From the NCBI RefSeq assembly GCF_000348945.1, contig NZ_AOCK01000014.1, positions 62,001-126,000 on the forward strand: DNA of 64,000 nucleotides, given 5' to 3'. The translations under genes and the position numbers were made by a program. Origin of the DNA: Paeniglutamicibacter gangotriensis Lz1y (lineage in GTDB: Bacteria > Actinomycetota > Actinomycetes > Actinomycetales > Micrococcaceae). Each line of letters begins with the position of its first letter. The stretch's first letter is position 1. A model generated the notes under the pieces. It was not told the DNA's origin and ran no database searches. It saw only the letters and a list, made by a program, of their open reading frames with translations. This document shows, in pieces, positions 3,112 through 19,954 of this stretch.

Positions 3112-3149
3112 CGGCCTTGGGGACCAGCGGTACAGCGGTTGGCGCTAAG
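3112..3149 (+). repeat. left terminal inverted repeat of the sulfur transposon
   Basis: Begins CGGCCTTGGGGACC and ends GGCGCTAAG. The GGGG and TAAG blocks are typical of Tn3-family ends. It pairs with 17163-17200 on the other strand with four mismatches in 38. Confidence 0.85.
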
Positions 3150-3239
3150 CGTGTGATCATGGCCCCGGACTGCGGTTCACCTGGTGCCAGAGTCGCCTGT
3201 ACTCCGCTGGGGCATCAGTGATCACTGTCTTTCGACGGA

Positions 3240-3863
3240 TCAGGCCTTTTGGCCGAGGTGGCGGTAGAGCGTCGCGCGACTCCACCCAACCAAACGTGCC
3301 GCGTCTTCGGCGGTGCGTCCCTTCGCGCGGGCGTCCTTCGCGATCGCAAGCTTATCCGCGATCACGGCCGGATCGGAGAGCGGCCGGCCGAAACGGGTGC
3401 CGGAGGCCCGGGTCGCGGCGATCCCGGCGTTGACGCGTTCAATGATCAGCTCGCGCTCGTACTCGGCCAAGGAGGCCAAGAAGTTCAGCATCATCCGCCC
3501 GGTCGACGTCGCGGGGTCGATCCCGTCCGAAATGGACCGGACGTTTACGCCGCGTTCGCGCAGCAGGTTCACGGTGTTCAGGACATCGATCAGGGACCGG
3601 CCCAGCCGGTCGACCCGCCAGACCACCACGGTGTCCCCGGCCTCGGCGTATTCCAGCAGCTTCTTCATCCCGGGCCGCTCGATCGCCGTCCTGCTTCCGG
3701 AGGTGACATCGGCGAAAACATCCCGCTTCTGCACCCCGGCATTGACCAGCGCGTCGAGCTGAAGCTGCGCATCCTGGCTCGAAGTGCTCACCCGCGTGTA
3801 TCCCAAATGTCTCACGCCCTCATTTTGACTCAGAAACCTCTTCGCGACACTCGATTGAGACAT
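3240..3863 (-). CDS. tnpR: serine recombinase (Tn3-family resolvase)
   Basis: This resolvase is expected to resolve transposition cointegrates at a res site. The N-terminal catalytic domain has the nucleophile serine in YTRVSTSSQD, the VWRVDRLGRSL arginine motif and the E-helix LASLAEYERELIIERV. The C-terminal DNA-binding helix-turn-helix follows (GRTAEDAARLVGWSRATLYRHL). Length (207 aa) fits the small resolvase/invertase group; an in-frame GTG 16 codons downstream (VRHLGYTRVS) is a plausible alternative start. It lies just inside the left transposon end and is transcribed outward, away from the res-like DNA upstream of it. Confidence 0.92.
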   Translation of the reverse strand: MSQSSVAKRFLSQNEGVRHLGYTRVSTSSQDAQLQLDALVNAGVQKRDVFADVTSGSRTAIERPGMKKLLEYAEAGDTVVVWRVDRLGRSLIDVLNTVNLLRERGVNVRSISDGIDPATSTGRMMLNFLASLAEYERELIIERVNAGIAATRASGTRFGRPLSDPAVIADKLAIAKDARAKGRTAEDAARLVGWSRATLYRHLGQKA

Positions 3864-4045
3864 TTTACGGCGCGACGACTTTCCGAGACATTTTGTGCCA
3901 CGTCATCTCGGGCCAGCCGATTTGAGGATGGGGACCCGTGCCCCTGTCTCGAAAAACTTTAGCTTTTCAAGACATTCAAACGCGTCTATTTCGTTCAGGA
4001 ACCCTCACACGGCTTCCGCGAGGCGGATTGTCTCGGAACTGTGGG
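3826..4045. other. putative res site of the resolvase
   Basis: The gene-free stretch upstream of the resolvase (3864-4181) holds several TGTCTC/GAGACA half-sites: GAGACATTTT at about 3853 and 3890, and a 30-bp dyad at 3945-3974 with arms TGTCTCGAAAA and TTTTCAAGACA; TGTCTCGG recurs near 4035. Spaced dyads next to tnpR are the usual design of a res site, which would also control tnpR expression. Further right, 4104-4125, is a GGACCT hexamer repeated tandemly. No other gene is seen here. Confidence 0.6.
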
Positions 4046-4181
4046 CGAGCTCAGCATGGCCATGCGCCGGGTTATCCCCGAGGGGTCCCTTCTGAGCGGA
4101 AGTGGACCTGGACCTGGACCTGGACGAGCCCCACACTGTCCGGCCTCTAATGACCAACGAAATCCGTGAGGATCCGATCAA

Positions 4182-4580
4182 CTAGAGCAGGGACTTGAGG
4201 AAGGCGGCGTCCTGGGGGTCGAGCATGCCGGCGAAGCGGGTGAGGCAGCGCCGGCGGTCGTTGGTCTCTCCCAGCGTGCGCACCATGTGCGCGGCGGAGA
4301 ACTGGCACCCGGTGAGCGTGGCACGGTAGGACCATACGCCGCCGATGAGTTCGCGTTCCGCCAGCGCCTTGTCCACCAGGTGGCCCAAGACGGTGGCGAC
4401 GGTCGTGTATGCGGGTTTCTGGCCTCCCGGCGCCGTGAGCTCCTGCACCATGCCCCGCGTGGTGTGTGCCTGGCGGGTCTTCCAAAGCACGTCCAAAACA
4501 CGCCGTTCCAGTGCCCCTACTGGGGGCGCCTCCCGGGGCTTGAAGGGTAGTTCGCCGGTGTCTTCAATGGAGGTCGTCAT
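4182..4580 (-). CDS. BlaI/MecI/CopY-family transcriptional repressor
   Basis: This is a winged-helix repressor of the penicillinase-repressor family. The N-terminal wing-helix domain spans about residues 20-90 (GALERRVLDVLWKT... TTRGMVQELT... PAYTTVATVLGHLVDKAL) and the C-terminal dimerisation helix ends LDPQDAAFLKSLL. Length (132 aa) is normal. Its start overlaps the stop of the upstream membrane-protein gene by four bases (ATGA), so the two are co-transcribed. Two perfect CTACTAT/ATAGTAG dyads between this operon and the divergent dsbA-ccdA-dsrE genes are its likely targets, implying autoregulation and control of the redox genes. The inducing signal is unknown; no metal-binding CxC tail or BlaR-type sensor protease is visible. 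Confidence 0.88.
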   Translation of the reverse strand: MTTSIEDTGELPFKPREAPPVGALERRVLDVLWKTRQAHTTRGMVQELTAPGGQKPAYTTVATVLGHLVDKALAERELIGGVWSYRATLTGCQFSAAHMVRTLGETNDRRRCLTRFAGMLDPQDAAFLKSLL

Positions 4581-5128
4581 GAATCCATCCTTTCCCGCTC
4601 AGCGGCCTGGCGACCGGGTATCGCGCATTGCTGCTGCCCAGACAGTCGGAACACCAGTGCAAGAACAGTCAGCACCATGGCCAGTGCCGCCAGCCAAGGC
4701 TGCAACGGCGCGAAATAGGTCATGGCTCCGGAATATCCCAGCGCCAACAGGGCGATCTTGTTGCAGACCGGGCAGCCGATCGCGAACCAGGCCAGTAGAC
4801 CGCCGGCCATCCCCCAGCGGGAGGTGCGGTCGGTTGGTTCCGCGGTCCCTGGGGTTGCCGGGGCCGCTGGCCGGATGTAGCTGGCGGCCAGCAGGCCGGT
4901 CAGGACGGAGGTGGCCAACCAGACGGGGTAGTTCCACGGCACCGGCGGGATGTCCCGGCTGAAGACGTCGTTGGGGATTAGCACCGTGGCGAAACCCAGC
5001 AGCAGCGCCATGGCCAGTGCCGAGGCCACTGCCACCGCCCATTGCCGGGAACCCCACCAGCGCAACGCCGCGCCGGCCAGCGGCAGGCGGCGGCGGAAAT
5101 CGATCAGCAAGCGTTGCGTGCGGCTCAT
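4577..5128 (-). CDS. membrane protein with GCPVCNK motif
   Basis: This is a 183-aa protein with four or five predicted membrane segments (about residues 25-45, 65-83, 110-130 and 140-175). A CxxC pair in the sequence AIGCPVCNKIALLALG sits at the start of a membrane helix, suggesting thiol or metal redox at the membrane face. The ATG at 5128 is chosen because it follows GGAGGAAC; the longer open frame upstream covers the operator region and has no ribosome site. It is the first gene of the operon with the BlaI-type repressor and is divergent from a DsbA-CcdA pair, so a role in electron transfer or disulfide exchange is plausible. I do not recognise a named family. Confidence 0.75.
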   Translation of the reverse strand: MSRTQRLLIDFRRRLPLAGAALRWWGSRQWAVAVASALAMALLLGFATVLIPNDVFSRDIPPVPWNYPVWLATSVLTGLLAASYIRPAAPATPGTAEPTDRTSRWGMAGGLLAWFAIGCPVCNKIALLALGYSGAMTYFAPLQPWLAALAMVLTVLALVFRLSGQQQCAIPGRQAAERERMDS

Positions 5129-5196
5129 TGTTCCTCCGTGTGCTTGATGTGTGATCCGTCCCGAGAGCGTCCCCGCTTGCCCTTCGGACCGCTTGT

Positions 5197-5236
5197 CTAC
5201 TATAAAGAATAGTAGACCTACTATGCAGCATAGTAG
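5197..5236. promoter_or_regulatory. two tandem BlaI-type operators
   Basis: Two perfect dyads, CTACTATAAAGAATAGTAG (5197-5215) and CTACTATGCAGCATAGTAG (5218-5236), share identical 7-bp arms and 5-bp centres. Their centres are 21 bases apart, about two helix turns. TACTA/TAGTA arms fit the BlaI/CopY operator style. They lie between the divergent operons starting at 5128 and 5263. Confidence 0.85.
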
Positions 5237-5262
5237 CCAATCGAGCCGAAGGCAGCGAAACC

Positions 5263-6066
5263 GTGCAGCAAATCCCCGAGAACCGCAAGCCCGCACCGGA
5301 GCGGGGGGACAAGCCTGGAACACGGCGCAAGGTTCCGTGGCTGTGGGTCGCACCCATTCCCGTGGCCCTGGCCATCGGCCTGCTCATCGGCGCGCAGCTG
5401 CCCGTCGGTGACCGGGCGCCGGGCCCGGAAGCGTCGTCCGCCGCAGTCCAAAATCCCGGCTCACAGACCCCCGGGCAGGACACCGACCCACCGGCACCCG
5501 CATTTCCCGATGTGGCGCGACTGGAGGCACAGGATCCCACTGCGCTGGGTGATGTGGATGCCCCGGTGGTCATGGTCGCCTTCACCGACTTCCAGTGCCC
5601 ATACTGCGCGAAGTGGACGGAGGGCACCCTGCCCGAACTGATCACCAAGTACGTCGACCAGGGGAAGTTGCGCATTGAATGGCGTGACCTTGACCTGTTC
5701 GGCGACGCCTCCCTGACCGCCGCTCACGCCGCACAGGCCGCGGCCATGCAGGGAAGCTACGTGCCCTTCCATACGCGCATGGCCGAAGGCGGCACCATCG
5801 CCCCCGGATCCGCCTACAGCGCGAAGAGCCTCAGGGCCACCGCCGAGGACCTGGGCCTGGACGGGGAGCAGTTCCTGGCCGACATGGACAGCAAACAGGC
5901 CAAGGATGCGGTGAAGCGCAACCTAGACGAGGCCCAGGAGCTGGCCGTCATGAGCACCCCGGTATTCCTGATCAACCAGATGCCGTTCGTCGGCGCGCAG
6001 CCCCTGGAGAACTTCGTGGCCGCCATTGACGCCGAATTGCAGCAGGCCGAAGCAGGCCAGCAGTAG
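5263..6066 (+). CDS. DsbA-family thiol oxidoreductase, membrane-anchored
   Basis: This is an extracytoplasmic thioredoxin-fold enzyme for disulfide formation or reduction. A basic N-terminus is followed by one membrane anchor (WLWVAPIPVALAIGLLIGA, about residues 26-45), a proline-rich linker, then the catalytic CPYC in FTDFQCPYCAKW (about residue 112). The inserted helical domain and the cis-proline loop (VMSTPVFLINQMPF) follow. The start is a GTG about 27 bases after the second operator. It is the first gene of a tightly packed operon with the CcdA-like gene, which probably supplies electrons. The family resembles actinobacterial DsbA/BdbD-like proteins; the direction of reaction cannot be read from sequence. 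Confidence 0.9.
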   Translation: MQQIPENRKPAPERGDKPGTRRKVPWLWVAPIPVALAIGLLIGAQLPVGDRAPGPEASSAAVQNPGSQTPGQDTDPPAPAFPDVARLEAQDPTALGDVDAPVVMVAFTDFQCPYCAKWTEGTLPELITKYVDQGKLRIEWRDLDLFGDASLTAAHAAQAAAMQGSYVPFHTRMAEGGTIAPGSAYSAKSLRATAEDLGLDGEQFLADMDSKQAKDAVKRNLDEAQELAVMSTPVFLINQMPFVGAQPLENFVAAIDAELQQAEAGQQ

Positions 6067-6974
6067 TGGAAGCCGGACTGGTCTTCGCCTTTGCCGGCGG
6101 TGTGCTCGGACTCTTCAGCCCGTGCAACGCCATGCTGCTGCCCGCGTTCTTCGCCCATGCCGCGACCTCCGGGCACCGGCTGCGGGTACTGGGGATCGCG
6201 TTCCTAGCCGGCATGCTGGCCACGCTGGTCCCATTGGGCCTGGGCATCGGATGGCTCGGCGGCGTCCTGGTCATCGACCGCCGCCTCCTGCTGGTCGCTG
6301 CCGCCTGGGTCATCGTCGCCCTGGGACTCATCCAGATCTTGGGCGGCGGCTTCGACCTGTCCCGCCTGCTACCCTTGCGTACCCGGCGCCGACGCGCCGC
6401 GGCAGGCTCGCCGTGGGGGGCGGTGTTGCTTGGGACGGTGGCCGGCGTTGCGGGGTTCTGCACCGGACCGGTGCTGGGGGCAATCCTGACCCTCATCCTG
6501 GCCAACGGCAGCGCACTGGGCGGGGGCATGCTGCTGGCCAGCTACGCGCTGGGTATGGTGCTGCCGGTGCTCGGCGTGGCCGCGGCCATGCGCCGCGCCG
6601 GCACCTTCCGAACCGGATGGCTGCGCGGACGCACCGTGACTGTGGGCCGGTTCCGCTTCCACACCAACGCGCTGCTGGCAGGAACCGTAACAATCACCGT
6701 CGGGATCCTCATGCTCACCACCGGGGGGCTACTCACCATGCCCGACCTGCTCTCCGCTGGCCTGATGGACCGGATCTCCGACGCGGCGTCCCGGATCGAT
6801 GCCGTGCTCCCGGACTGGGCATGGCCTTCCATGCTGGGAGCGCTGCTATTGGCCTGGTGGATCGGGCTTGTACGCCGAACCCTGCGCACCAAGGACGCGG
6901 CCGTGGCCCCTGAATCACTCGAGGAGGCAATCCTTGGGGATAATACCGGGGTTCCCGCGAAGGCCCGACCATGA
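6066..6974 (+). CDS. CcdA/DsbD-like transmembrane electron carrier
   Basis: This 302-aa polytopic protein of the cytochrome c biogenesis transmembrane family passes reducing equivalents across the membrane. Conserved cysteines are in the first helix (FSPCNAMLLPAF) and the fourth (VAGFCTGPVLGA), the pair that shuttles electrons in CcdA/DsbD. About seven membrane segments can be drawn. The GTG start overlaps the stop of the DsbA-like gene by one base, so translation is coupled, and the DsbA-like protein is the obvious partner. The C-terminal tail after residue 285 is cytoplasmic and unremarkable. Confidence 0.9.
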   Translation: MEAGLVFAFAGGVLGLFSPCNAMLLPAFFAHAATSGHRLRVLGIAFLAGMLATLVPLGLGIGWLGGVLVIDRRLLLVAAAWVIVALGLIQILGGGFDLSRLLPLRTRRRRAAAGSPWGAVLLGTVAGVAGFCTGPVLGAILTLILANGSALGGGMLLASYALGMVLPVLGVAAAMRRAGTFRTGWLRGRTVTVGRFRFHTNALLAGTVTITVGILMLTTGGLLTMPDLLSAGLMDRISDAASRIDAVLPDWAWPSMLGALLLAWWIGLVRRTLRTKDAAVAPESLEEAILGDNTGVPAKARP

Positions 6975-7321
6975 CCTGGCGGTTGCTGCTGCACCTAGCC
7001 GGACCGGGCACCGAACCATTCCCGGATGTGGCCACGGCCCTGCAGGTGGCCCGCAATGCGCACGAACGGATGTCCGACACCATCGTGGAAGTCATCGTGC
7101 AGGGCCCGTCGGTGTCCCAGTTGGCCGCGGACGGGAAGCACGCCCCCGACATTGCGGCCCTACACGGCATCCCCGGCATTTGCATTACCGCATGCGCGAA
7201 CAGTCTGCATGCAGCCGGATTGGCCCCGGATGCGCTGGTCGAGGGTGTCGCGGTCGTCCCCGCGGCCATCGCGCATCTGGCCCAACGCCAGCACGACGGC
7301 GCTGCATATGTCCGCCTCTGA
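6971..7321 (+). CDS. DsrE-family sulfur-relay-like protein
   Basis: This 116-aa protein has the DsrE/DsrF fold: LLLHLAGPG... ALQVARNA... IVEVIVQGPSV and one conserved cysteine in ITACANSLHAAGL. DsrE-like proteins bind sulfur as a persulfide on such a cysteine and hand it on. It overlaps the CcdA-like gene by four bases (ATGA), completing a three-gene operon of thiol oxidoreductase, membrane electron carrier and sulfur carrier. The acceptor is unknown. The remnant just downstream suggests a DUF302 gene once followed it. Confidence 0.85.
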   Translation: MTWRLLLHLAGPGTEPFPDVATALQVARNAHERMSDTIVEVIVQGPSVSQLAADGKHAPDIAALHGIPGICITACANSLHAAGLAPDALVEGVAVVPAAIAHLAQRQHDGAAYVRL

Positions 7322-7393
7322 CCCGAGCTTGGCGCACTGCTCCCGTGCAAAAAGACCGTGCCAGTGACCTTCACCAACCAGGGGAGAACCTAG
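7322..7393 (+). pseudogene. DUF302 gene fragment after the DsrE-like gene
   Basis: Reading on in the DsrE frame after its stop gives PELGALLPCKKTV and a stop codon at 7391-7393. This closely matches PQLGALLPCNVVV in the intact DUF302 protein encoded on the other strand just to the right. It is too short to act and looks like a relic of a second DUF302 gene lost by deletion. Confidence 0.5.
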
Positions 7394-7809
7394 GAGCCTG
7401 CTTTTTCGGAGATTTCCTTCAGCGCCGCCTGAAGGCGGCCATCGGCATCGTTGGCGACCTCGCGTGTCGCGTCACCCGGGCTGAGTTGGACCATGGTTTG
7501 CGGGTCGATGGCCTCAATGGTGGTTTCCTTGGCATCGGGGGCGCGACGCACCACGACGTTGCACGGGAGCAGCGCGCCCAACTGTGGTTCGGCGGCGATG
7601 CCGCGCTGGGCCAATTGCGGGTTGCAGGCCCCGAGGATGATGTAGTTCCCCACGGCGTCCCCGGCTTCCTGGCCCAGCTTCCGGGCGAAGGTCTCCTTCA
7701 CGTCAATCTCCGTCAGCACGCCGAATCCCTGTTCCGCCAAGGCGCCGCGGGTCCGGTCGACGGCGTCTTGCCATGACAGCGCGACGGTGATGGCGTGGGT
7801 GTACGTCAT
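7390..7809 (-). CDS. DUF302-family protein
   Basis: The full 139-aa protein matches DUF302: N-terminal HAITVALSWQDAVDRTRGALAEQGFGVLTEIDVKET-type sequence (residues 5-40), central NYIILGACNPQLAQ and LGALLPCNVVVR. The two cysteines are the only ones present. DUF302 proteins are small, often found with sulfur-oxidation or heavy-metal genes, and their biochemical role is not established. It is the last gene of the long leftward operon that begins with the persulfide dioxygenase. Its stop meets the DUF302 fragment on the other strand. Confidence 0.85.
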   Translation of the reverse strand: MTYTHAITVALSWQDAVDRTRGALAEQGFGVLTEIDVKETFARKLGQEAGDAVGNYIILGACNPQLAQRGIAAEPQLGALLPCNVVVRRAPDAKETTIEAIDPQTMVQLSPGDATREVANDADGRLQAALKEISEKAGS

Positions 7810-7895: not shown

Positions 7896-9221
7896 CTACG
7901 TGTTGGGCCGATCGCGCGGAAGCATTGCCAAGGTATCGCCGGCATGGAAGGGCGGTGAAAGCCGTTGGTGCGTTTCATACATGCGGACCGCGACAACCAG
8001 GGACGCGGCTGCGCTGAGGGCGGCGGCCATCCAAATGGCCGCGTGCAGCCCCATGAGGTCGGCAATGATCCCGCCGGCGATGGCACCGACGGCGTATCCG
8101 AGGTCGCGCCAGACCCGGTAGACCCCCACGGCCCGTCCTCGCCATGAGGGATGGGCGACGTCGCCGACCGTTGCCAGCAGCGTGGGGTAGACCATGGCGG
8201 TTCCCGCTCCGAGCAATACGGTTCCCGAGGCCCAGGCACCAAAGCCGTCCCCGAGCGCGATGATCGCAAGGGCTCCGGCCTGGACCAGCATGCCGGTGGT
8301 GATGAGGTGTTTGCGTCCGATCCGGTCCGAGAGAGCGCCGGTGGCCATTTGGCCGATGCCCCAGACCCCGGGATAAAGGGCGAAAAGCAGGCCGATCTGG
8401 CCCGTGCTGAGATCCGCGGTGGCGAACAGGAGGGGGAACAGGCCCCAGGAGAGTCCGAAGTTCAGGTTGTTCACCAGGCCGGCCAGGCTCGCCGAGGACA
8501 AGGCAGGTTCGCGGAAGCTGGTCAGGGAGAAGATTTGGCCGTTGGCTAGGTTGGCGTCCAGGCCATGCCGGGCGGAGGTGCCCCGGGCGGCAATGTTTCC
8601 GGCATCCAGGAGGGCATGTGGGTGGGTCTCCCGGACGAAAAGGCCCGACAGCAGCAGTGCCAAGGCGGTGTAGGCGATTCCCAAGAGGAAGGGCGCCGGA
8701 CGCAGCCCGTACTGCTCGGCGAGGTATCCGGCCAGCAGGGAGGTGGCGGCCACGGCCCCGTAGCCGGCGGCCTCGTTCAGGCCCATGGCCAGGCCGCGCT
8801 GTGCCGGGCCCACCAGGTCGATTTTCATGATGACGGTGGTCGACCAGGTCAGGCCCTGGTTGATGCCCAGCAGCACGTTCGCGGCGACGACCCAGCCCCA
8901 GTCCGGCGCAAGGATGAGCATCAGCGGCACCGGAATGGCGAAAAGCCACCCGGCCAGCAGCACGGGTTTGCGTCCGTAGCGGTCCGAGAGGGTCCCGGCG
9001 AACCAGTTGGAGGTCGCCTTGGCGATCCCGAAGGCCGCCACGTAGGCAAACAGGAACGTGTATCCATTCAAACCGAACTCAGTGTGGGCGAGCAGTGGCA
9101 GGACGGTTTGTTGCTGTCCAACCATGCCCCCGACCAGCGCGTTGACCGCGACGAGCAGGGTGAACTGCGCCGCGTTGGCGCGCAAACCCAAGCTGGGGAG
9201 TGCCCTGGTGGACTGCTTCAT
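7896..9221 (-). CDS. MFS transporter
   Basis: This is a 441-aa major facilitator with about 12 membrane segments. The loop 2-3 signature is FAGTLSDRYGRKPVLLAG and a repeat occurs in the second half (ATGALSDRIGRKHLITTG). The ATG at 9221 follows AGGAGA. It sits between the TauE/SafE exporter and the DUF302 gene in the persulfide operon. The substrate is unknown; by context it may export a sulfur compound or a product of sulfide stress, but that is inference. No close match to a drug-specific subfamily is apparent by eye. Confidence 0.88.
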   Translation of the reverse strand: MKQSTRALPSLGLRANAAQFTLLVAVNALVGGMVGQQQTVLPLLAHTEFGLNGYTFLFAYVAAFGIAKATSNWFAGTLSDRYGRKPVLLAGWLFAIPVPLMLILAPDWGWVVAANVLLGINQGLTWSTTVIMKIDLVGPAQRGLAMGLNEAAGYGAVAATSLLAGYLAEQYGLRPAPFLLGIAYTALALLLSGLFVRETHPHALLDAGNIAARGTSARHGLDANLANGQIFSLTSFREPALSSASLAGLVNNLNFGLSWGLFPLLFATADLSTGQIGLLFALYPGVWGIGQMATGALSDRIGRKHLITTGMLVQAGALAIIALGDGFGAWASGTVLLGAGTAMVYPTLLATVGDVAHPSWRGRAVGVYRVWRDLGYAVGAIAGGIIADLMGLHAAIWMAAALSAAASLVVAVRMYETHQRLSPPFHAGDTLAMLPRDRPNT

Positions 9222-9275: not shown

Positions 9276-10172
9276 TTAGTGGGCTTCGGTTGCCGTGGTG
9301 GTGGCGGGGGACCCCAGGGACGTGCGTCGCAGGGGGCATGCGGGGATGGCAAACCAGCACAGGGCCGCGGCCGTGGCGATTGCGGTGGCCGTGAGGCCCA
9401 TGATGAGGTTGGCCGGGGAGGGTAGTTCCTGGACGAGGACGAAGACGCCCATGGCCAGGACGAAGAAGCCAAAGCCCTTGCGCAGGGCCGCTTCGGGGAT
9501 GCGTCCGGCCAGGCGTGCGCCGAGGAAGGAACCGAGGATCGCTGCGGCCGTGACCCCGCCGACCAGCACCCAGTCCAGGGAGACCGTGGTGAGGTAGCCG
9601 CCGAGTCCGGCAAAGGACTTCATGGCGATAACCACCAGCGAGGTGCCGACCGCGACGGGCATCGACAGGCCGCCAAGCAGGGCGAGTGCCGGGACGACGA
9701 GGAAGCCACCGCCGGCGCCCACCAGCCCGGTGACCAGGCCCACGACCAGGCCCTCGATGATGACCTTGAATACGGGCAGCTCGGCGTCGTGGGTGGCGCC
9801 GGTGTGGTTCTTGCGGCCGCGGATCATGGCCAGGGAGGTGGCGACCATCATGAGGGCGAAGGCGATCATGAGGATGGTTCCGGGGATGTGGCCCCCCAGC
9901 AGCCCGCCGCCGAAGGCCCCTGCCATGCCGGCTGCGCCGAAGACCAGGCCGGTGCGCCATTGCACGCGTTTCTTGCGGGCGTGGGTCACGGCGCTGACCG
10001 CGCTGGTCGCTCCAACGACGAAGAGCGAGGCGGCGATGGCTTCCTTGGGGTTCATGCCTGCGACGTAGGTGAGGATCGGGACGGTGAGGATGGACCCGCC
10101 GCCGCCGAGCAGGCCGAGGGAGATCCCGATCAGCACCGAGAGCAGGAGGGTGAGTGCGAGGGTGAGGGTCAT
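9276..10172 (-). CDS. TauE/SafE-family sulfite/organosulfur exporter
   Basis: This 298-aa membrane permease of the TSUP family is often linked to export of sulfite or other small sulfur anions. It shows the two-repeat architecture with glycine-rich openings (LLGGGGSILTVPIL near residue 25 and GLVGAGGGFLVVPALALLGG near residue 145) and 7-8 membrane helices. It directly follows the rhodanese gene and precedes the MFS gene in the same operon. Since the operon's first enzyme releases sulfite from persulfides, export of sulfite or thiosulfate is the natural role. Confidence 0.88.
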   Translation of the reverse strand: MTLTLALTLLLSVLIGISLGLLGGGGSILTVPILTYVAGMNPKEAIAASLFVVGATSAVSAVTHARKKRVQWRTGLVFGAAGMAGAFGGGLLGGHIPGTILMIAFALMMVATSLAMIRGRKNHTGATHDAELPVFKVIIEGLVVGLVTGLVGAGGGFLVVPALALLGGLSMPVAVGTSLVVIAMKSFAGLGGYLTTVSLDWVLVGGVTAAAILGSFLGARLAGRIPEAALRKGFGFFVLAMGVFVLVQELPSPANLIMGLTATAIATAAALCWFAIPACPLRRTSLGSPATTTATEAH

Positions 10173-10240: not shown

Positions 10241-10537
10241 TTAGCTGACGGGCAGCCCGGCGCGTTGCCAGGCGATCATGCCGCCGGCCATGGTGTCTGC
10301 GGTGTAGCCAGCCCCGGTGAGGGCGTCGGCGACGCGGGCACTGCGGTTGCCGCTGCGGCAGATGACGATGACCGGGCGGGACCGGTCGAGTTCGCCCAGA
10401 CGCGTGTTCAACTCGCCCATGGGGATGTGGATGGCGCCGGGAATCATGCCCTCGGCGACTTCGAAGTCTTCACGGACATCGAGGATCTGGTCCGTAGCAC
10501 GTCGGCCGTCGGTGTCGGTGATGGTGATTTCTGGCAT
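10241..10537 (-). CDS. single-domain rhodanese (sulfurtransferase)
   Basis: This small sulfurtransferase has one rhodanese domain. The active-site loop is CRSGNRSARVA, with the persulfide-carrying cysteine at about residue 59; upstream are the LDVREDFEVAEGMIPGAIHIP signature elements. The start at 10537 is preferred because it follows GAAGGAGCA; an upstream ATG would add 20 unrelated residues. It probably moves sulfane sulfur between the persulfide dioxygenase, sulfite (forming thiosulfate) or thiols. Confidence 0.88.
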   Translation of the reverse strand: MPEITITDTDGRRATDQILDVREDFEVAEGMIPGAIHIPMGELNTRLGELDRSRPVIVICRSGNRSARVADALTGAGYTADTMAGGMIAWQRAGLPVS

Positions 10538-10651
10538 GATTGCTCCTTCGGGGGCGTGTTCAAACGGTACGTGGTGGTTCCCGGGCACCGGATCCACTCG
10601 CCCCGGGCCCGGAAACCGGAGGAAAGCGATTGGCCGCGGGCCAACCGGGGG

Positions 10652-11251
10652 TTAGGACTTCTTGGCCGGAAGCTGGGCCATGACCGATTCACGGGTCGGC
10701 TCGTTCCCGGTCTTGTTCCAGGGCATCACGGCTAGGGCCTTGCCCATGGCGCAGGTGTTGGTGGCCGCGGAGAAGGTCAGGCCGGCACCGATGGCCCCTG
10801 CGACGGTGCGCAACTGCGGGGAGAGGAACTTGCCCCCGGCCAGGCCGGCCACCACGAGGGAACCGGCCACCATGCGCACCTGGCGTTCCAGGGCCCAGCG
10901 CTTGGACCCTTCGACGGTCTGGCCGCCGGCCTGCTGGTAGGCGGGAACCCCGCCGGACAGGACATGGGCGTTGCCGAAGCCGACCGATGCGAGGTTCGTT
11001 TTGGCTTCGGTGGCGCGCACGCCGGATTGGCAGACCAGCACCACCTTGGTGTCAAGCTTGGCCGCGAGTTCTTCGGTGTGTTCGGCCAGCAACGGGAGGG
11101 GCACGTTGTAGGAGCCCTTGATATGCAGGGTTTCGAATTCGGCGGCGGATCGCACGTCCAGCACCACGACGTCGGTGCCGTTGGCGATCCAGTTCTTGAG
11201 CTCTTCGGGACTGGTGCTCTGGGGGATGGTGGATTGGGGGGTGGTGTTCAT
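10652..11251 (-). CDS. rhodanese with C-terminal DUF2892 membrane domain
   Basis: This 199-aa protein combines an N-terminal rhodanese domain (VVLDVRSAAEFETLHIKGSYN, active loop VCQSGVRATEA) with a C-terminal pair of membrane helices (RMVAGSLVVAGLAGG and AGAIGAGLTFSAATNTCAMG) typical of DUF2892/YgaP-like sulfurtransferases. The membrane part carries one more cysteine near its end. YgaP-like proteins have been linked to sulfur transfer at the membrane. The ATG at 11251 replaces an upstream ATG because the intervening residues are low in similarity. It is the second gene of the operon, after the persulfide dioxygenase. Confidence 0.85.
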   Translation of the reverse strand: MNTTPQSTIPQSTSPEELKNWIANGTDVVVLDVRSAAEFETLHIKGSYNVPLPLLAEHTEELAAKLDTKVVLVCQSGVRATEAKTNLASVGFGNAHVLSGGVPAYQQAGGQTVEGSKRWALERQVRMVAGSLVVAGLAGGKFLSPQLRTVAGAIGAGLTFSAATNTCAMGKALAVMPWNKTGNEPTRESVMAQLPAKKS

Positions 11252-12755: not shown

Positions 12756-12797
12756 GTCTCTCCTTGTTGATGGTCGTGGTTGGTTCGCCTACCCTCC

Positions 12798-12849
12798 ATA
12801 CCCCCAGGGGTATGAACTTCACTTCAAACGATAATACCCCTAGGGGTAT
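12798..12849. promoter_or_regulatory. CstR-type operator pair for the persulfide operon
   Basis: Two near-identical 16-bp dyads, ATACCCCCAGGGGTAT (12798-12813) and ATACCCCTAGGGGTAT (12834-12849), lie upstream of the dioxygenase gene with centres 36 bases apart. Such C/G-tract dyads with AT edges are the recognition class of CsoR/CstR regulators. The cognate regulator gene is 450 bases to the right. Confidence 0.87.
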
Positions 12850-12959
12850 GCGTCAAGTCATCCGCCGTCCAGACCCCAGGGTCGCTTGCCCCACAAAAAG
12901 CGGCGGTCGGCACCATCCGCGCTGGCGCCGCCCACTGTTCGGCATGGGATGGCCGGGGC

Positions 12960-13136
12960 TTAGCGGCCAAAGAGGCGTGCGAAGAACCCGCCCTCCTTGC
13001 CGGTCCCCTTCGGGGCGTTCGGGTCGCAGGAGCAGCGTTCATTGCGTGGCACGTGGGCCATGACCTGCTTGACGTGCTGGCCGCATCCGGACCAGGTGAT
13101 TTTTTGGCATTTGCGGCATTTGGCTGCTCGGCACAT
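12960..13136 (-). CDS. small Cys-rich zinc-finger-like protein
   Basis: This 58-aa protein begins MCRAAKCRKCQKITWSGCGQH and ends with CSCD and a phenylalanine-rich tail (GGFFARLFGR). Six cysteines and one histidine, in CxxC-like spacing, suggest zinc or persulfide binding. It is a recognisable companion of CsoR/CstR loci in actinobacteria, with no known activity. GAAGGAAT precedes the ATG. It is divergent from the CstR-like gene and shares its operator pair, so it belongs to the regulon. Confidence 0.75.
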   Translation of the reverse strand: MCRAAKCRKCQKITWSGCGQHVKQVMAHVPRNERCSCDPNAPKGTGKEGGFFARLFGR

Positions 13137-13204
13137 GTGGCGATTCCTTCGGTTTGGGATTGTCGATGGAGGCTCGTCCCTCCTCTGGTACTCGATTATG
13201 GCAC

Positions 13205-13264
13205 ATACCCCTAGGGGTATCGAGTATCCACTGTCAACGATACCCAGGAAACCCCCCGGGGTAT
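13205..13264. promoter_or_regulatory. second CstR-type operator pair
   Basis: A perfect ATACCCCTAGGGGTAT at 13205-13220 and a looser site at 13249-13264 (AAACCCCCCGGGGTAT) lie between the Cys-rich gene and the CstR-like gene. They imply autoregulation of the regulator and control of its divergent neighbour. Confidence 0.82.
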
Positions 13265-13301
13265 ACAATTGAGAAAAACCAACACCGGGAGGAACCCCAT
13301 C

Positions 13302-13559
13302 ATGGAACTTGAAGTGGACACCATGAAGCCCGTCATCAACAGGCTCAAGCGCGCCCAAGGACAGCTCAACGCGGTGATTCGCATGCTGGAGGAAGGCAGC
13401 GACTGCCGCGCGGTCGTCACCCAGTTGTCCGCCGCGTCCAAGGCCATCGATCGCGCCGGGTTTGCCATCATCGCCACCGGACTGGAGCAGTGCCTCAAAA
13501 GCGAGGACCCCACGGCCGACCGTGCCGACATGGAAAAGCTCTTTCTCTCGCTGGCCTAG
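13302..13559 (+). CDS. cstR: CstR-like (CsoR family) persulfide-sensing repressor
   Basis: This 85-aa all-helical regulator of the CsoR/RcnR family has the N-terminal INRLKRAQGQLNAVIRMLEEG signature. A first cysteine follows in SDCRAVVTQL and a second in TGLEQCL. In copper-sensing CsoR a histidine lies four residues before the second cysteine; here that position is glycine, leaving just two cysteines. That pattern is the one known for CstR, which forms di-, tri- or tetrasulfide bridges on exposure to sulfane sulfur. GGGAGGAAC precedes the ATG at 13302, so the ATG 33 bases further upstream is unlikely. It would derepress the dioxygenase operon under sulfide or persulfide stress. Confidence 0.87.
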   Translation: MELEVDTMKPVINRLKRAQGQLNAVIRMLEEGSDCRAVVTQLSAASKAIDRAGFAIIATGLEQCLKSEDPTADRADMEKLFLSLA

Positions 13560-13917: not shown

Positions 13918-16900
13918 TCAGTCTTCCGCGCCGTCCTCGTCGTCGTCGAGTCCGAGTGTGTCCGGATCACGGAGCGGGCGCAGGGTGCCGCCCGCCGGCT
14001 GGGTGGCGGTGAAGCTGTAGCGGCCGAGCAGGTTGAGGTTCTTGTGTTTGAGCGGGGAGAGCCGGGCCACGTCCTCGTCGCGGATCTCGTGGCCCTCGGT
14101 GCGGAGCTGGGCGACTGCGGCGTCGAGGTAGCGGGTCGTCCAGAGCACGACGGCATTCAGGACCAGGCCGAGCGAGCCGAGTTGGTCCTCCATCCCGTCG
14201 CGGTACGCCTGGTGAATGGTGCCCTTCTTGCCGTGGCAGATCTCCCGGGCCAACTTGTGGCGGGACTCCTGCACGGTGAGCTGCTTGTGCATTTGCCGCC
14301 GGTAGGTGTCATCCACGGGGTCCACAACGGCAAGCAGGTGCAGGGTCTTGGCGATCCGCCCGTATTCGGCGAACGCCTGGCCAAGCGGTGTGGGGCGGCC
14401 CTCGTGCCCGAACATCCGCAGCAGGTCATAGGCGCGCACCTGGTTGGTGACCAAGGAGCCGGCCACCCGCAGCATGTCCGGCCAAGCCGTGAGCACCTTG
14501 TTCACGTTCACTTTGTTGTTGCGGGCCAGTGCCTCCAACGCTCCGTATCCGTCTGCCGGCTCGGCGCCGGGCATTTGGGCCTTCCAGAACCGTTGGTCTT
14601 CGAGGTCTCTGAAGCGCGGGGAGAAGCGGTAGCCGAGCATCTTGAAAATCCCGAAGACCGTGTCGGAGTAGGAGGCATTGTCGGTGGCGACCATCTCGGG
14701 CTTCACCCCGCCGTCCAGGTTCAACAGGGCGTCCAGGATGAACAGGGAGTCACGTGGGGTGCCGGGCACCACCATCTGCCCGATGCCGGCCACCTGGTCG
14801 TTGATCGCGTTCAGCCAGGTGACGCCCTTCTTCTTTGCGAAGTACTTCGGCGAGGGCGCGGCGTTGATAGTGCGCACGGGAACGACGAAGCGCAGGCCGT
14901 CGACGGAGGCGAGCAGGCCCTTGCCCCAGAACTGCACGATGGGCACCCTGGCTTGGGCTTCGATCAGAGCGGCGTTCGCCGCGGCGATGGTGGTGGTGCG
15001 CAGGTAGTACTGGTCAACGTGGACCAGCCGGGAGCGGGTGAGCGCCTCATGGCCCGGGTTGATCACCGGGGTCATGCCGATGTTGCAGGCTTCCGAGACA
15101 AGCAGCGCGACGATCGAGGTGCTCAGGTCCTTCATCCGGGTCTTGCCATCGCCCAGGTGCACGAAGGCGTCCAGGAATCCGGTCCAGGCGTTCACCTCGA
15201 AGAGCAGGTCCGGCAGGTCGATCTTCGGGAGCATCTTCTCCACCCGTCCGCGCAGCCACGCCAGCGACTTCGGCTCCCCGAGCGCGTGAAGCTTCTCCAC
15301 ATTCAGTTTCGCCCTCCCGCTGGGCTGCACCTCGATGCTGATCTTCGCGTCGTCACCGGCTTCTTCGAGGCGCTCGGCCATCTGCCTCCAAGTGGCATCC
15401 AGTACCTCGAGAAGTTCCCGCAGGTGCTGCTCGGCATCCTCCTCCAGGCTCAGGCCGGCCAGGATGTCCTCGCGCACCGCCTCCCACCCCGTGCCCATGA
15501 GCAGGCGGGCGCGTGGGTCAGACCAGCGGTGCGAGGGTGAGGCGAAGATGTCCCGACGCTTCAGGGCGCGGAAGAGCTGTTCCAGGACACACACCACGTA
15601 CGCGTCGCGATCCACAGTCCCCTGGGGCAGCTCGGCGTTCGCATACACTGCCTGGTGCCAGTGCGGCGGCACGAGTTTGTCGTCGATCTCCCGGGGCAGC
15701 AGCGGCTTCTCGCCGACCTTCCGACGCGAGAGTGCCGGCAGCTTCTTCACCCCGGCCAAGATCCGTACCCCGCCGGTCGCGGCTTCCAGCGCCGAGGTCT
15801 CACCCAACAGCGACAGGAACGGCTTGACGGTGTTGTAGCGCAGTGCCAGCGCACCACGCAGTGCGGTTTGCGCCGAATCGCCGTCCTGGGGCACCAACGT
15901 CACCACGGTGGCGGCCGCGCCCGACATCACCGACCGGGGCGCGATCTCCTCCAACGCCCGCCACAGTGCAGCCACATCCACATCGCCACCGGCCTCCTCG
16001 ATGGACTCCAGCTTCTCGATGAACACCTTCGCCGCCCTGGCCACAATCCGGGACGCCTTCTCCAACTGTGGCAGGGTGGACAGGCGCTGCTTGTCGGTGG
16101 AGCGCTTCGCGGTGCTGATCAGCCTGGTCGCCATCAGGATCTCGAACAGGTCAAGGGCATCATCGATCGCCTTGGCCTCCAGATGGCGCATCACCGCGGT
16201 GAGTATCGCCGTGCGCTTGGGTTCCGCGGTCCGCTCCAGCTTCGGGGCCTTGGTGCCCAGCCCGTACCGGGCCAGCACGGCGAGCCGGTTCGGCGGTATC
16301 TGTTCCAGTTTCAGCCGGCCCAGCCCGAAGGCGGCGATGTCCTCAACCCGCTGCAACGCACCCTTCATCGCGGTGCCGGTGCTCCGCGTTGGCGGTCGAC
16401 GCATCCGCTCCAGTTCCGAGTACCGGGTGCCCTCCGGTGTTTTCAGCGTGGCAACCAAGTCCCCGGGCAGCGCCGGATCCGCCCGCAGGGCGGCCTTGGC
16501 AACCGTGGCGTGCAGCCGCTTCTCGGCGATGGTGCGGACCTCGGAAACCTGCCGGGCCAGCACGTTCACCCCGGGTAGCAGCACCCGGTGCCGACGCAGC
16601 CAACCCGCCGCGTGGTTGAACAACGCGACAGGTCCCTCGGCGTGCGTCCATGCCCGCCCGTGCAGGAACGCCCTGAACCTTCGGCCGTGGTCGGGGTCCT
16701 CGTACTGGTGGTAGCCGTACGCATCGCGGATCTCCCACGCGTGTTCGTACGCCGTCTTTGGCCGCTCGGTGTATTCCTTGAGGCAGGAGGGATCCTCAAT
16801 CTCCAGCTGTGCCGCCAGATGCTCAACGACCGGCCACGGCACAGCCGAGGGGTCCTCCAGGAACAGCCCGATGTACCGGACCGTGCACATCTGCAGGGCG

Positions 16901-17055
16901 AAGCCCAGGCGGTTGTGGTCGCCTCGCCGCTTCGCGATCAGGCTCCGGTCCTCGTCGTCGAGGAAGAAGAAGCGCTCCAACTCGGGCCGCGTCGGTTCCT
17001 CGGCGAACCTTCCATAGGCCTCGGCCTGTTCATCAGTCAGAAATTCCACGGGCAT
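13918..17055 (-). CDS. tnpA: Tn3-family transposase, full length
   Basis: This large DDE transposase moves the enclosing transposon by a replicative route. The N-terminal DUF4158 DNA-binding domain (FLTDEQAEAYGRF... RRGDHNRLGFALQ) is followed by the catalytic region with aspartates in LASVDGLRFVVPV and MVATDNASYSDTVFGIF. The C-terminal tail is complete: HKLAREICHGKKGTIHQ..., LNAVVLWTTRYLDAAV. The ATG at 17055 (MPVEFLTDEQ) is preferred over one 57 bases upstream because homologues begin there. At 1045 aa it is of usual length. Its 5' end, not its 3' end, faces the nearby inverted repeat, which is the reverse of classical Tn3. Confidence 0.94.
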   Translation of the reverse strand: MPVEFLTDEQAEAYGRFAEEPTRPELERFFFLDDEDRSLIAKRRGDHNRLGFALQMCTVRYIGLFLEDPSAVPWPVVEHLAAQLEIEDPSCLKEYTERPKTAYEHAWEIRDAYGYHQYEDPDHGRRFRAFLHGRAWTHAEGPVALFNHAAGWLRRHRVLLPGVNVLARQVSEVRTIAEKRLHATVAKAALRADPALPGDLVATLKTPEGTRYSELERMRRPPTRSTGTAMKGALQRVEDIAAFGLGRLKLEQIPPNRLAVLARYGLGTKAPKLERTAEPKRTAILTAVMRHLEAKAIDDALDLFEILMATRLISTAKRSTDKQRLSTLPQLEKASRIVARAAKVFIEKLESIEEAGGDVDVAALWRALEEIAPRSVMSGAAATVVTLVPQDGDSAQTALRGALALRYNTVKPFLSLLGETSALEAATGGVRILAGVKKLPALSRRKVGEKPLLPREIDDKLVPPHWHQAVYANAELPQGTVDRDAYVVCVLEQLFRALKRRDIFASPSHRWSDPRARLLMGTGWEAVREDILAGLSLEEDAEQHLRELLEVLDATWRQMAERLEEAGDDAKISIEVQPSGRAKLNVEKLHALGEPKSLAWLRGRVEKMLPKIDLPDLLFEVNAWTGFLDAFVHLGDGKTRMKDLSTSIVALLVSEACNIGMTPVINPGHEALTRSRLVHVDQYYLRTTTIAAANAALIEAQARVPIVQFWGKGLLASVDGLRFVVPVRTINAAPSPKYFAKKKGVTWLNAINDQVAGIGQMVVPGTPRDSLFILDALLNLDGGVKPEMVATDNASYSDTVFGIFKMLGYRFSPRFRDLEDQRFWKAQMPGAEPADGYGALEALARNNKVNVNKVLTAWPDMLRVAGSLVTNQVRAYDLLRMFGHEGRPTPLGQAFAEYGRIAKTLHLLAVVDPVDDTYRRQMHKQLTVQESRHKLAREICHGKKGTIHQAYRDGMEDQLGSLGLVLNAVVLWTTRYLDAAVAQLRTEGHEIRDEDVARLSPLKHKNLNLLGRYSFTATQPAGGTLRPLRDPDTLGLDDDEDGAED

Positions 17056-17155
17056 GAGACTGACAATAGCCGCCCCACTAGTGATCGAAAGTCTTCCGAC
17101 GAAAATCTGCACGAAACTCCGCGCAACCTGGATCGCCTGAGCTAAACAATCATGA

Positions 17156-19954
17156 TCAAGTGCCTAGCGCCAACCGCTGTACCAGTAGTCCCCAAGGCCG
17201 TATCTGGCCCCTCCTGCCGTGGAAGATGAGTCTGGCCAGGGCATGCCGGGATTCCTGCACAGTCAACTGGGTATGGATTTGCCGGCGGTACCCCTCATCG
17301 GCATCGATGAAGTCCAACAGATGCTCGGTCTTGGCAATCCTCCCGTACTCCGCCAACGCCTTCCCGAGCAGCGTCGGTGCCCCGCCTCCCTGGGTGACCC
17401 GCAGGACTTCCGAGGCACGCACGGTCCCGACAGTCAGGGACCCGGCAAGGCGGAGCATGTCCGGCCAGTTCGACGTGATGAGATCCAGGTTGATGCGGTT
17501 GCGGCCGGCCACCGCGTTCAGCTTCCCATAATCCGCCGTGGCGTCGATGCGCCAGAACCGTTGGTCCGGCAACCCGGCCAGTCGGGGTGAGAACCGATAT
17601 CCGAGCAGCGTGAAAAGCCCGAAGACATGGTCCGAGTAGGAGGCCGTGTCAGTGGCGACCATCTCGGGGCGTTGGCCGCCGTCAAGATCGAGCAGCCCAT
17701 CGAGAATGTGCAGGGAATCGCGGACCGTTCCCGGAACCACGACGGCGCCCAGGCCGGAGACCTGGTCGTTGAGATAGTTCAGCCAGGTCAGGCCGCGGCC
17801 CTGGCCGAAGTAGCGCGGATTTGCCCCGGCATTGACGGTGGCCACCGGCACCACGAACCGCATCCCGTCGACGGACGCCAGCAGGCCTGTGCCCCAGCGC
17901 TGCGCGAGTCCGAGACCGGACTGGGCCTTGATCAGGCGGGCGTTGGCCGCGCGCAGCGTATCGGCACGCACATAGTTTTGGTCAACGTGGCTCAGGCGTC
18001 CACGGGTCAGGGCGGGGTGGCCGTCCCTGACCACCGGTGTGAGCCCGACGTTGCAGGCCTCGGCCACCAGGATGGCGGCGACGGAGACATCAAGCTGGCC
18101 CATCCTCGCGGAGGCCTCCGAGACGTGGCTGAATTCCGAGAGGAACCCCGTCCAGGAATGCACTTCCAGCAGCACATCGGGCAGATCCACCCGCGGCAGC
18201 ATCCCGGAGACCAACCCCCGCAACTGCGTCAAGGACTCCGGGACCGTCTTGGCCTCCAGGGGTGAGAGGTGGACCTTGCCGGCATCATCAATCCGTACCG
18301 TTGGATTGTCGGCCAACTGCTCAGCCGCCGCACGATATCGGGCATCAAGGCGGTGGCGGACACCAGCCAGATGGTCCGCTGGCTCTTCGGGCAGCTGGAG
18401 CGCCCTCAAGGTCTCGTTCTTGGTGGCCTGCCACGCAGGATCGGTCAGCAACCGCGCCCGAGGGTCTCCCCAGCGCCGCCCGCCCACCACGAAGATGTCC
18501 CGGCGCCGCAGCGCCTTGTGGACGGCCACCGTCACTGCCACCGTGTAGGCCTTGCGGTCGATTTCCTCCGAAGCCGTGACAAGGCGATGCCAAGTTGGAG
18601 AGAGTACGGACAGATCAACCTCGGCAGGGTCTTTCTTGCGGCCGTCCAGAACTTCCGGCAGTGCCGTCAGCGCCGCCAACGTTGGCGTCCCGCCCGCGGT
18701 GGCCCCGAAGGGTGCCGCCTCGGCCAATGCTGGCAGGAACGAGCGCACGGTGGCGAACCGGCGCAGCATCTCGGCCGCGGTGTCAGCCTCGGCACCCCCG
18801 GGATTCACCACTTCGTTCACCACCTCGAGCGCGGCGCGTAGCTCGGACAAGGAAACCTGATCGGCCAGCACCGAGGCGGCCTCTGCGCCGGAATATTCCG
18901 TGTTGTCCAACACCTCGACCAGTGTTTTCGCGGCCTTCGCCAATTGCAGTGAGGCCTTGGACAAACGGGGCAGGGACTTCAACCGGGCGGCAGTGGATTC
19001 CCTGGTTGCCTTGCGCAGAACGCGTTCGTTGACAATGGCGTCCAGGGCATCACACAAATCATCGGCAACCTCCGACGTCAAGGCGCGCACGGCACAAAGC
19101 AGTGTCGCACCCCGCCGCTGTCCCGATAGTCCTCGAAGCGATGAGGCCTTGCCCGCCAACCCGTAGCGGGCAAGGGCGTTCATCCGGCCCTCGGGGATCA
19201 TCTCCACATCGATGGTCCCGGCACCCAGGGCCCGCAGGCGTGCCAGCCGCTCCAACTGCCGCAGCAATTCCGGCACCGAGACCCTCGAGGGCCCGGTCCG
19301 CAGCCGTTCCCACGCGGTCAGCCGTGACCCCTCCCCAACGCGAAGCAGACCTTCCAATTCCAGAATCAATGCGGGGCCGGCCGCGTCCACCAGCATGGAA
19401 TGGAGGCGGTCATTTGCTCCGGAGCGGACCTCTAAAACCAGTCGTGTCAACGTGGAGACGCCGGGGAGAAGGACCTTGCGCTCACGCAGCCAGAGAGCTG
19501 CCCGTTCAAACAAACGCACCGGTCCCTCCGACGAAGTCCAGGCCCGGGCCTCCAGAAACAGCCTCAGCTCTTCGTACCTGGCCGGATCGGAGAAATCCGC
19601 ATACCCGTACTCGGTGGAGATTTCCGCGGCGTGCTCGTACCCGGTCTGTCCCCGCTGCGCATACAGCTTGAGCACGGAAGCATCGGCAATGCCCAGCTGC
19701 CCGGCCAGGGATTCCACCACCGGCCACGGAACAGCCAATGGATCCGTCAAAAAACGTCCGACTACCCGCACCGTGATCAGTTGAACAGCAAATCCCAGGC
19801 GGTTGTGCATTCCCCTGCGGCGACCAACCACCGACAAATCGGCATCGTCCAACCAACAGAAACGTTCCAGGTCCTCCGCTGGTACCTCGTCGGGGAATCC
19901 GCTGAACCCTGCGACCTGCTCATCACTTAGAAAATCGACCGCCATGTCACCCAT
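17156..19954 (-). pseudogene. tnpA: second Tn3-family transposase, C-terminally truncated
   Basis: This is a second Tn3-family transposase of a different lineage. It starts MAVDFLSDEQVAGFSGF (ATG at 19945 more likely than 19954), has the DUF4158 domain (RRRGMHNRLGFAVQ), and carries catalytic blocks LASVDGMRFVVPVATV and MVATDTASYSDHVFGLF. After VQESRHALARLIFHGRRGQIR the frame enters the right repeat of the sulfur transposon and ends 13 codons later (PWGLLVQRLALGT), so the last 70 or so residues that homologues have are lost. It is probably inactive. Its own 38-bp end is intact upstream, and a fragment of a sister copy lies near 45.0 kb. Confidence 0.88.
17163..17200 (-). repeat. right terminal inverted repeat of the sulfur transposon
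   Basis: On the minus strand it begins CGGCCTTGGGGACTAC and ends GGCGCTAGG, matching the left end at 3112-3149. It cuts into the older tnpA to its right. Confidence 0.85.

Follow-up and report, generated by a model that had tools for sequence, protein, structure and literature searches.

Related Mobile Elements

The closest described relatives of the element reported here, a transposon at positions 3112-17200 of a 64,000-nucleotide stretch of Paeniglutamicibacter gangotriensis Lz1y DNA (contig NZ_AOCK01000014.1; G000:C14:62001-126000 in our genome set; hereafter the window), come from a few studies. The thiol-redox (CYT) and persulfide (SUL) modules of pA58H2 were described as passenger genes of ISArsp9, an element of 12,978 bp, and Tn6516 and Tn6517 were the only Tn3 elements listed (Romaniuk et al., 2018, PMC6305408). 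A mobile unit combining CYT and SUL was thus already known, because that paper assigns both modules to ISArsp9. Tn6517, a 7,080-bp member of the Tn3 family in pA40H2, has hypothetical proteins as its passenger genes (PMC6305408). In Tn3, tnpR and tnpA are divergent (PMC7157771). Inter-transposon recombination at res site I is known for toxin-antitoxin modules, as in the exchanges Tn5501/TnTsp1 and Tn5501.12/Tn4662a, where it swaps the adjoining DNA; passengers other than toxin-antitoxin genes are usually found at a distance from the genes for resolution (Lima-Mendez et al., 2020, PMC7157771). In Streptomyces, Tn4556 has 38-bp ends; its tnpA starts about 200 bp in from one of them and is read towards the interior, tnpR lies at the opposite end, and the cargo is between the two genes (PMC6403206).

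The interval 3112-17200 (14,089 bp) is a complete Tn3-family transposon with 38-bp ends, a transposase, a serine resolvase with its res region and two regulated sulfur/thiol modules. We put at roughly 85% the probability that it is a replicative transposon of Paeniglutamicibacter whose cargo is a mosaic, assembled via res site I and an MFS transporter gene. The cargo is predicted to comprise a CstR-controlled persulfide/sulfide detoxification set and a BlaI-controlled membrane thiol-redox set. A preliminary description, made from the sequence alone, had called this combination unusual for one Tn3 unit. PMC6305408 places the modules in no Tn3 element, but the combination is not unique, since ISArsp9 already carries it. 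No paper was found on the Tn3 family together with persulfide dioxygenase in a literature search whose scope omitted most subscription journals, so that a description elsewhere is possible. Three things are new within the literature searched: the Tn3 transposon with its borders, the duplicated target site around a relative of it, and, for Micrococcaceae, the proposed role of site I as a port for cargo of metabolic and metal-related genes. Both gene sets are now tied to a second, bordered transposon type, and their spread in soil actinobacteria therefore has more than one vehicle.

A Bordered Tn3-Family Transposon

The features that define the element, and the tract exchanged within it, are as follows.

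3112..3149, + strand: left terminal inverted repeat, 38 bp, resolvase end (repeat search, pattern scan; identical in P. terrestris)
3240..3863, - strand: tnpR, serine resolvase, 207 amino acids (aa) (PF00239, 1.6e-42)
3864..3974: putative res region, placed from sequence, with site I at 3945-3974 (TGTCTCGAAAAACTTTAGCTTTTCAAGACA), the candidate cargo-exchange point
3975..7323: thiol-redox (CYT) module, interchangeable cargo block (homology break points)
7896..9221, - strand: MFS transporter (PF07690), holding the right-hand switch point of the swapped tract at about 8600-8750 (sliding identity)
13918..17112, - strand: tnpA, complete Tn3 transposase, 1064 aa (NF033527, 838 bits; PF01526 over 1-389/389)
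17163..17200, - strand: right terminal inverted repeat, 38 bp, adjoining the start of tnpA (repeat search, pattern scan, comparison with P. terrestris)

Repeat, Pfam and NCBIfam searches bear out what the preliminary description had listed: matching 38-bp ends, a resolvase with res, a full transposase and two regulated modules. Positions 3112-3150 (+) and 17162-17200 (-) are identical at 35 of 39 positions (34/38 for the 38-bp ends), and a blind repeat search extended the repeats to 50 bp at 86% identity. With three of the four differing positions as wild cards, the end pattern occurs twice in the window against none expected (100 shuffles). The ends start CGGCCTTGGGGAC, with a terminal CGGC instead of the usual GGGG. 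A 38-bp scan of window positions 1-30000 at up to 10 mismatches found only these two ends. An internal true end near the 3′ end of tnpA was considered and rejected, there being no third 39-bp end in the window at up to three mismatches. TnpA, of the roughly 1000-aa DDE transposase kind, aligns over residues 44-1049 of 1064 with Tn4430 TnpA (7qd8; 1.8e-94). It would act on the 38-bp ends, and TnpR would resolve cointegrates at res. Membership of an ISArsp9 or Tn5053/Tn402-like group finds no match here: among the 15 open reading frames (ORFs) of 3112-17200 scanned against Pfam, 13 gave matches and none was of the Mu/rve type or an AAA ATPase. No structured RNA was matched in window 2900-20100 at the Rfam gathering threshold.

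The 5′ side of tnpA adjoins its own terminal repeat and the gene reads inward, opposite to the orientation in classical Tn3. The preliminary description was right about this orientation, but the layout is not peculiar to the element: it is shared by a 7,078-bp element with AGTAA duplications on contig C9 of the same genome, by a copy in ERGS1:01, and by Tn4556 (PMC6403206). Tn4556 differs in having a tyrosine recombinase (PF00589) as resolvase and in carrying unrelated cargo (PMC6403206).

The evidence for mobility comes from a relative in Paeniglutamicibacter terrestris (C29:50338-64466; 14,129 bp), whose ends are letter-identical to those of the window element and which is 99.5% identical to it over the first 862 bp and 97.8% over the last 9.8 kb. 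This copy lies in merB between perfect 5-bp duplications (TTACC on both sides), and the same borders with a 5-bp duplication in another context were what had been set beforehand as the check on mobility. Searched apart, its flanks fall on adjacent stretches of Rhodococcus erythropolis CP032404 (39144-39546 and 39560-40393) that are annotated merB, the second reaching into merA. In Mycobacterium dioxanotrophicus CP020812 they match 104616-104951 and 104949-105745, a small overlap of the kind that a target duplication gives, and the ORF flanking the P. terrestris element has an alkylmercury-lyase HTH domain. The P. terrestris copy is an insertion by Tn3-type transposition. In P. sulfureus, the right part of SUL, tnpA and the right repeat are nearly identical to those of the window, the left end is degenerate and tnpR is split.

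We surveyed 295 genomes of the family with the CstR-tnpA-right-end segment (4,241 bp) as query. At least 191 of them have some match, many to CstR or to distant tnpA only. Among the matches listed, the full 4,241 bp were found in three genomes (P. gangotriensis itself, P. sulfureus and P. terrestris), tnpA with the right end from about query position 953 onward in G001 (P. antarcticus) and G269, and shorter pieces reaching the right end in G002, G008 and G124.

Mosaic Cargo

The present cargo is a mosaic with visible break points. From the left repeat through tnpR, the window is 99.9% identical to P. terrestris vs. 84-86% to pA40H2, pA58H2 and the congener G013, which carry a resolvase, BlaI/DsbA/CcdA/DsrE and the persulfide module without this transposase. 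Positions 3973-7323 are 100% identical to pA40H2 and to G013 and 98.9% to pA58H2, and are unaligned in P. terrestris; the res-proximal slot of P. terrestris and P. sulfureus holds a different 3.4-kb block that includes a multicopper oxidase. Between site I and a point near 8700, the identity of the window to pA40H2 and G013 is 96-100% (98-100% and 96-100%, respectively, in steps of 150 bp as far as 8600). The remainder of the element, beginning near 8750, is about 98-100% identical to P. terrestris, the lowest value being that of tnpA (98.4%). From TauE through CstR, identity is 99.6-100% to P. terrestris vs. 75-93% to pA40H2, pA58H2 and G013, and past CstR only the P. terrestris and P. sulfureus elements align, with tnpA at 98.4% and 100%.

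The left switch falls inside an inverted repeat (3945-3974) whose length and location fit a res site I. The right switch falls in the MFS gene at about 8600-8750; the sequences compared hardly differ there (99% at 8600), the pattern expected of homologous recombination. A P. terrestris-type transposon would have exchanged its res-proximal cargo for that of pA40H2 and ISArsp9-type elements (pA58H2, G013). The left crossover would be the work of the resolvase, at the centre of site I, and the right one that of homologous recombination within the MFS gene.

The ends of ISArsp9 were re-found in our pA58H2 locus at 5629 and 18606 (L009), spanning exactly 12,978 bp. Within them lie a Mu/rve-type transposase, an AAA ATPase, a resolvase 92% identical in amino acids to the window TnpR, and the cargo. 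ISArsp9 thus resembles the window element in carrying the same two modules beside a related resolvase (CYT DNA 98.9% identical in pA58H2 and 100% in pA40H2; TauE-CstR 75-93%), but differs in its transposition genes and ends and in having no Tn3 transposase. ISArsp9-type ends are absent, at up to four mismatches, from the window and from the two other Paeniglutamicibacter elements. YC-RL1 has an ISArsp9-type right end and a Mu/rve transposase, and G013 (L039) has the exact resolvase-side end of ISArsp9 and, on the other side, only a candidate with four mismatches.

Two further loci appear to be chimeras, with a Tn3-type end beside tnpR and an ISArsp9-type end past CstR: pA40H2 (L008, 7840-7877 and 18520-18551) and pA8H1 (L010, 2676-2713 and 10211-10242).

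The economical interpretation is an exchange of arms between Tn3-type and ISArsp9-type elements, made possible by the compatibility of their res sites.

Site I as a Probable Exchange Point

Across 45 tnpR-res copies, the best site I lies at a conserved 81-92 bp from tnpR in 36: exactly 81 bp in 30 copies, 82-83 bp in five and 92 bp in one; nine have no clear site. The 30 resolvase/res copies used for half-site analysis fall into 19 right-hand sequence clusters, one pair (L055 and L180, from two genomes) being identical. Where the cargo was the same and tnpR was less than 95% identical (17 pairs), the right half-site had a mean of 0.18 mismatches and the left 1.59. Where tnpR was the same (at least 98%) and the cargo differed (eight pairs), the left half-site had 0-1 mismatches and the right 2-6. 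On these counts the left half-site follows tnpR and the right half-site follows the cargo.

A clear example is given by pA40H2, pA8H1 and contig C16 of P. gangotriensis itself, which are 99-99.9% identical over about 970 bp to the left of site I. To its right lie CYT and SUL in pA40H2, SUL alone in pA8H1, and a block of ArsR, P-type ATPase and signal-peptidase II genes in C16. The C16 locus (G000:C16:23438-24340 and rightwards; L014) is itself an inverted repeat-tnpR-res cassette, 99% identical to pA40H2, beside those ArsR, P-type ATPase and signal peptidase II genes.

Resolvase recombination at res probably moved this cargo between two transposon families. Beyond this one case, we somewhat favour a general view in which, in Micrococcaceae, site I of a shared serine-resolvase type would be a cargo port between Tn3-type and ISArsp9-type elements. 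TnpR would there exchange whole stress-response blocks (sulfur, copper oxidase, metal efflux) directionally, in the manner of cassettes but without an integrase, each cargo bringing its own right half-site; the 14-kb element would be one such swap, and pA40H2 and pA8H1 others. The likeness to the Tn5501/TnTsp1 and Tn5501.12/Tn4662a exchanges lies in the site, whereas those concerned toxin-antitoxin pairs within Tn3 elements and here one of the two partners falls outside the Tn3 family; the cargo lying directly against site I here consists of sulfur, copper-oxidase and metal-ATPase genes, in contrast to the arrangement usual for such passengers there (PMC7157771). The half-site pattern offers a clean, testable case for a resolvase shuffling large passenger blocks, beyond small toxin-antitoxin pairs and perhaps between transposon families.

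Weighing the Alternatives

Several observations weigh against a mosaic Tn3-family transposon formed via site I. The half-site analysis covers 30 of the 45 copies: four were duplicates of loci represented elsewhere in the set, and 11, among them L193 and L200 at the expected position, were dropped for a best half-match of at most 14/22. Several of the 17 and eight pairs share loci or ancestry and form a pattern rather than 25 independent events. The pairs were selected by cut-offs on sequence identity to the left and right of the site; what carries weight is only that the switch falls within the 30 bp. None of 98 matching plasmid records holds 80% of the unit in one place, and no second copy of the exact cargo between the same ends was found in these records or in 15 genomes of the genus. 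The whole 10.3-kb cargo occurs in two of the 15, P. gangotriensis itself and G013, and at the G013 locus this transposase is absent from the 35 kb examined. The joining of CYT to SUL at 7323/7355 is not accounted for; a res-like site was considered at this junction, and none was seen by eye. Moreover, the window copy has no 5-bp duplication (TTAAC on the left, TATCT on the right), and the rest of the parA gene cut at its left border was not found in the genome, in a DNA similarity search that had no positive control.

Two truncated genes flank the element.

2878..3111, - strand: plasmid parA, remaining 3′ part, cut at the left border (intact in pA58H3 and pA40H2)
17156..19954, - strand: second Tn3 transposase gene (tnpA2), truncated at the right border, 932 aa (NF033527 to 886/954)

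The right end of the element sits inside tnpA2, the final codons of which read into the right terminal repeat. Intact versions of both flanks exist elsewhere: tnpA2 is uninterrupted in three relatives (contig C16 of the same genome, P. antarcticus C141 and G006 C12), with open frames of 1004-1013 codons from stop to stop, and in pA58H3 and pA40H2 the sequence continues past the equivalent of 3111 into an intact parA. Adjacent deletions are a possible outcome of Tn3 transposition within one molecule. In the simplest history, the element would first have inserted in tnpA2, and a later deletion outward from its left end would have removed the left duplication together with most of parA. Homologous recombination between two transposon copies at different sites would yield the same hybrid flanks, and several other ends of this type are present in the genome; we nevertheless regard such recombination as the less likely, though serious, alternative, given that those ends (five places in the assembly besides the window's two, at up to three mismatches of the 22-bp inner core) bound no second full copy and that the reciprocal flank carrying the rest of parA was not found (again with no positive control), as deletion predicts.

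Two neighbouring features are worth recording. At window 2121-2564, adjoining the cut parA, a direct repeat of 222 bp that contains inverted repeats occurs twice in tandem (91%) and is a candidate partition site or iterons. At window 20008-20900 (approximately), directly past the truncated tnpA2 element, a VIT-family gene and adjacent DNA are 100% identical to G012 (P. sulfureus) and G013.

A second alternative concerns site I. Selection might keep res while cargo was inserted beside it, by res-hunting transposition of the Tn5053/Tn402 type or by illegitimate recombination, so that no resolvase need have made the changes. Res-hunting transposons are known (PMC7765201), and genes for a Mu-type transposase (rve and Mu-transpos_C) adjoin tnpR in pA58H2 and YC-RL1, but in both they lie on the far side of tnpR and not at site I. 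Insertion would also be expected to leave residual shared sequence of variable length, or the ends of the inserted element, at the junction, whereas the junctions lie within the site: copies of one cargo type differ by no more than one base in their right half-sites, and the left half-sites track tnpR. We judge insertion beside res improbable and retain resolvase exchange at site I.

That the repeats come from two different Tn3 elements, each partly deleted, which lie 14 kb apart with plasmid DNA between them, one of the outcomes that the preliminary description had named as fatal to its proposal, is most improbable: inverted repeat-tnpR-res pieces with no tnpA1 relative in the stretch examined (e.g., L008, L010, L014), the unduplicated target of the window copy, and cargo without this end pair in pA40H2, pA58H2 and G013 speak for it, but it is contradicted by the P. 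terrestris insertion, in which the same two ends enclose the corresponding tnpR, SUL and tnpA, and 5 bp of merB at the target are perfectly duplicated.

The Persulfide Module

The SUL genes form a DUF302-MFS-TauE-Rhd-Rhd-CstB row with a divergent CstR-type regulator. Apart from the MFS gene given above, they are:

7390..7809, - strand: DUF302 protein (PF03625)
9276..10172, - strand: TauE/SafE family exporter (PF01925, 2.9e-51)
10241..10597, - strand: single-domain rhodanese (PF00581)
10652..11299, - strand: rhodanese with a YgaP-like transmembrane domain (PF00581, PF11127)
11358..12755, - strand: CstB-like persulfide dioxygenase-rhodanese fusion, 465 aa (PF00753 and PF00581)
12798..13264: four operator-like palindromes, ATACCCCNNGGGGTAT (exact at 12798, 12834 and 13205; one mismatch at 13249)
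13269..13559, + strand: CsoR-family repressor of the CstR type, with two Cys and no His (PF02583; alignments to 6ahx and 7mq1)

CstR-CstB persulfide systems are of the Staphylococcus aureus type, and CstB systems oxidize persulfide to sulfite and thiosulfate, with export. The window set resembles them in its two-Cys CsoR-family repressor without the metal His and in its metallo-beta-lactamase-rhodanese fusion, and differs in being transposon-borne and having added MFS and DUF302 genes; its sensing is predicted. Both Cys of the repressor align with those of 6ahx and of 7mq1, which we take to be a CstR, and a Gly stands at the position of the 6ahx metal His. The CstB-like protein has a metallo-beta-lactamase domain and a C-terminal rhodanese on a single chain and aligns over nearly its whole length with 3tp9 and 3r2u. 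The depositors' names for 3r2u and 7mq1 are metallo-beta-lactamase family protein and CsoR, respectively. The palindromes (ATACCCC-NN-GGGGTAT) precede both divergent units, 0.16 being expected at up to two mismatches. Taken together, CstB, the two further rhodaneses and the TauE-type exporter suggest oxidation of persulfide to sulfite and thiosulfate with export, and from this content the element may confer tolerance to sulfide and persulfide. The authors who described the modules proposed, by contrast, energy gain from sulfur oxidation (PMC6305408).

The Thiol-Redox Module

In CYT, a unit of BlaI and a 183-aa membrane protein is divergent from a DsbA-CcdA-DsrE unit.

4182..4580, - strand: BlaI/MecI-family repressor (PF03965, 3.3e-13)
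4577..5128, - strand: 183-aa membrane protein with a GCPVCNK motif (invariant in seven aligned homologues)
5197..5236: two perfect dyads, CTACTAT-N5-ATAGTAG, likely BlaI operators
5263..6066, + strand: membrane-anchored DsbA-like thioredoxin-fold protein (PF13462, 2.1e-29, and PF01323; anchor read by eye)
6066..6974, + strand: CcdA/DsbD-type membrane protein (PF02683, 2.6e-12)
6971..7321, + strand: DsrE-like protein (PF02635, 2.1e-4; 21.9 bits, just below the Pfam cut-off of 22.7)

The two 19-bp dyads lie at the divergent promoter, between the transcription units, where 0.01 would be expected at up to two mismatches, and with the PF03965 repressor they predict a BlaI/MecI-regulated operon. The 183-aa protein matched no Pfam or NCBIfam family, the query having been a longer 258-aa ORF. 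Relatives of it occur in 45 of 297 genomes of the order, three of these being weak matches. At five loci outside the genus (about 3.5 kb each, so that edge effects are possible), BlaI, DsbA and CcdA lie beside the homologue in three, BlaI only in one and none of them in one. As a guess, the 183-aa protein could move electrons or sulfane sulfur across the membrane.

Other Tn3-Type Elements in the Genome

The C9 element (G000:C9:159911-166988; L013 4912-11989) is a Tn3 element of 7,078 bp; its 38-bp ends are of the GGGG type, and the AGTAA duplication that flanks it is perfect. It is apparently an isoform of Tn6517, having the same two end sequences; its resolvase and transposase are at opposite ends. 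The ends of Tn6517 resemble those of the window element in being 38 bp long with a similar inner core, but start GGGG, and the C9 element's TnpA and TnpR are only 51% and 42% identical to those of the window. Elsewhere, 432 bp between two diverged ends of the same type (G000:C2:66839-67270; L015 4840-5271) hold a degenerate scrap of tnpA and look like a miniature element derived from a Tn3 transposon.

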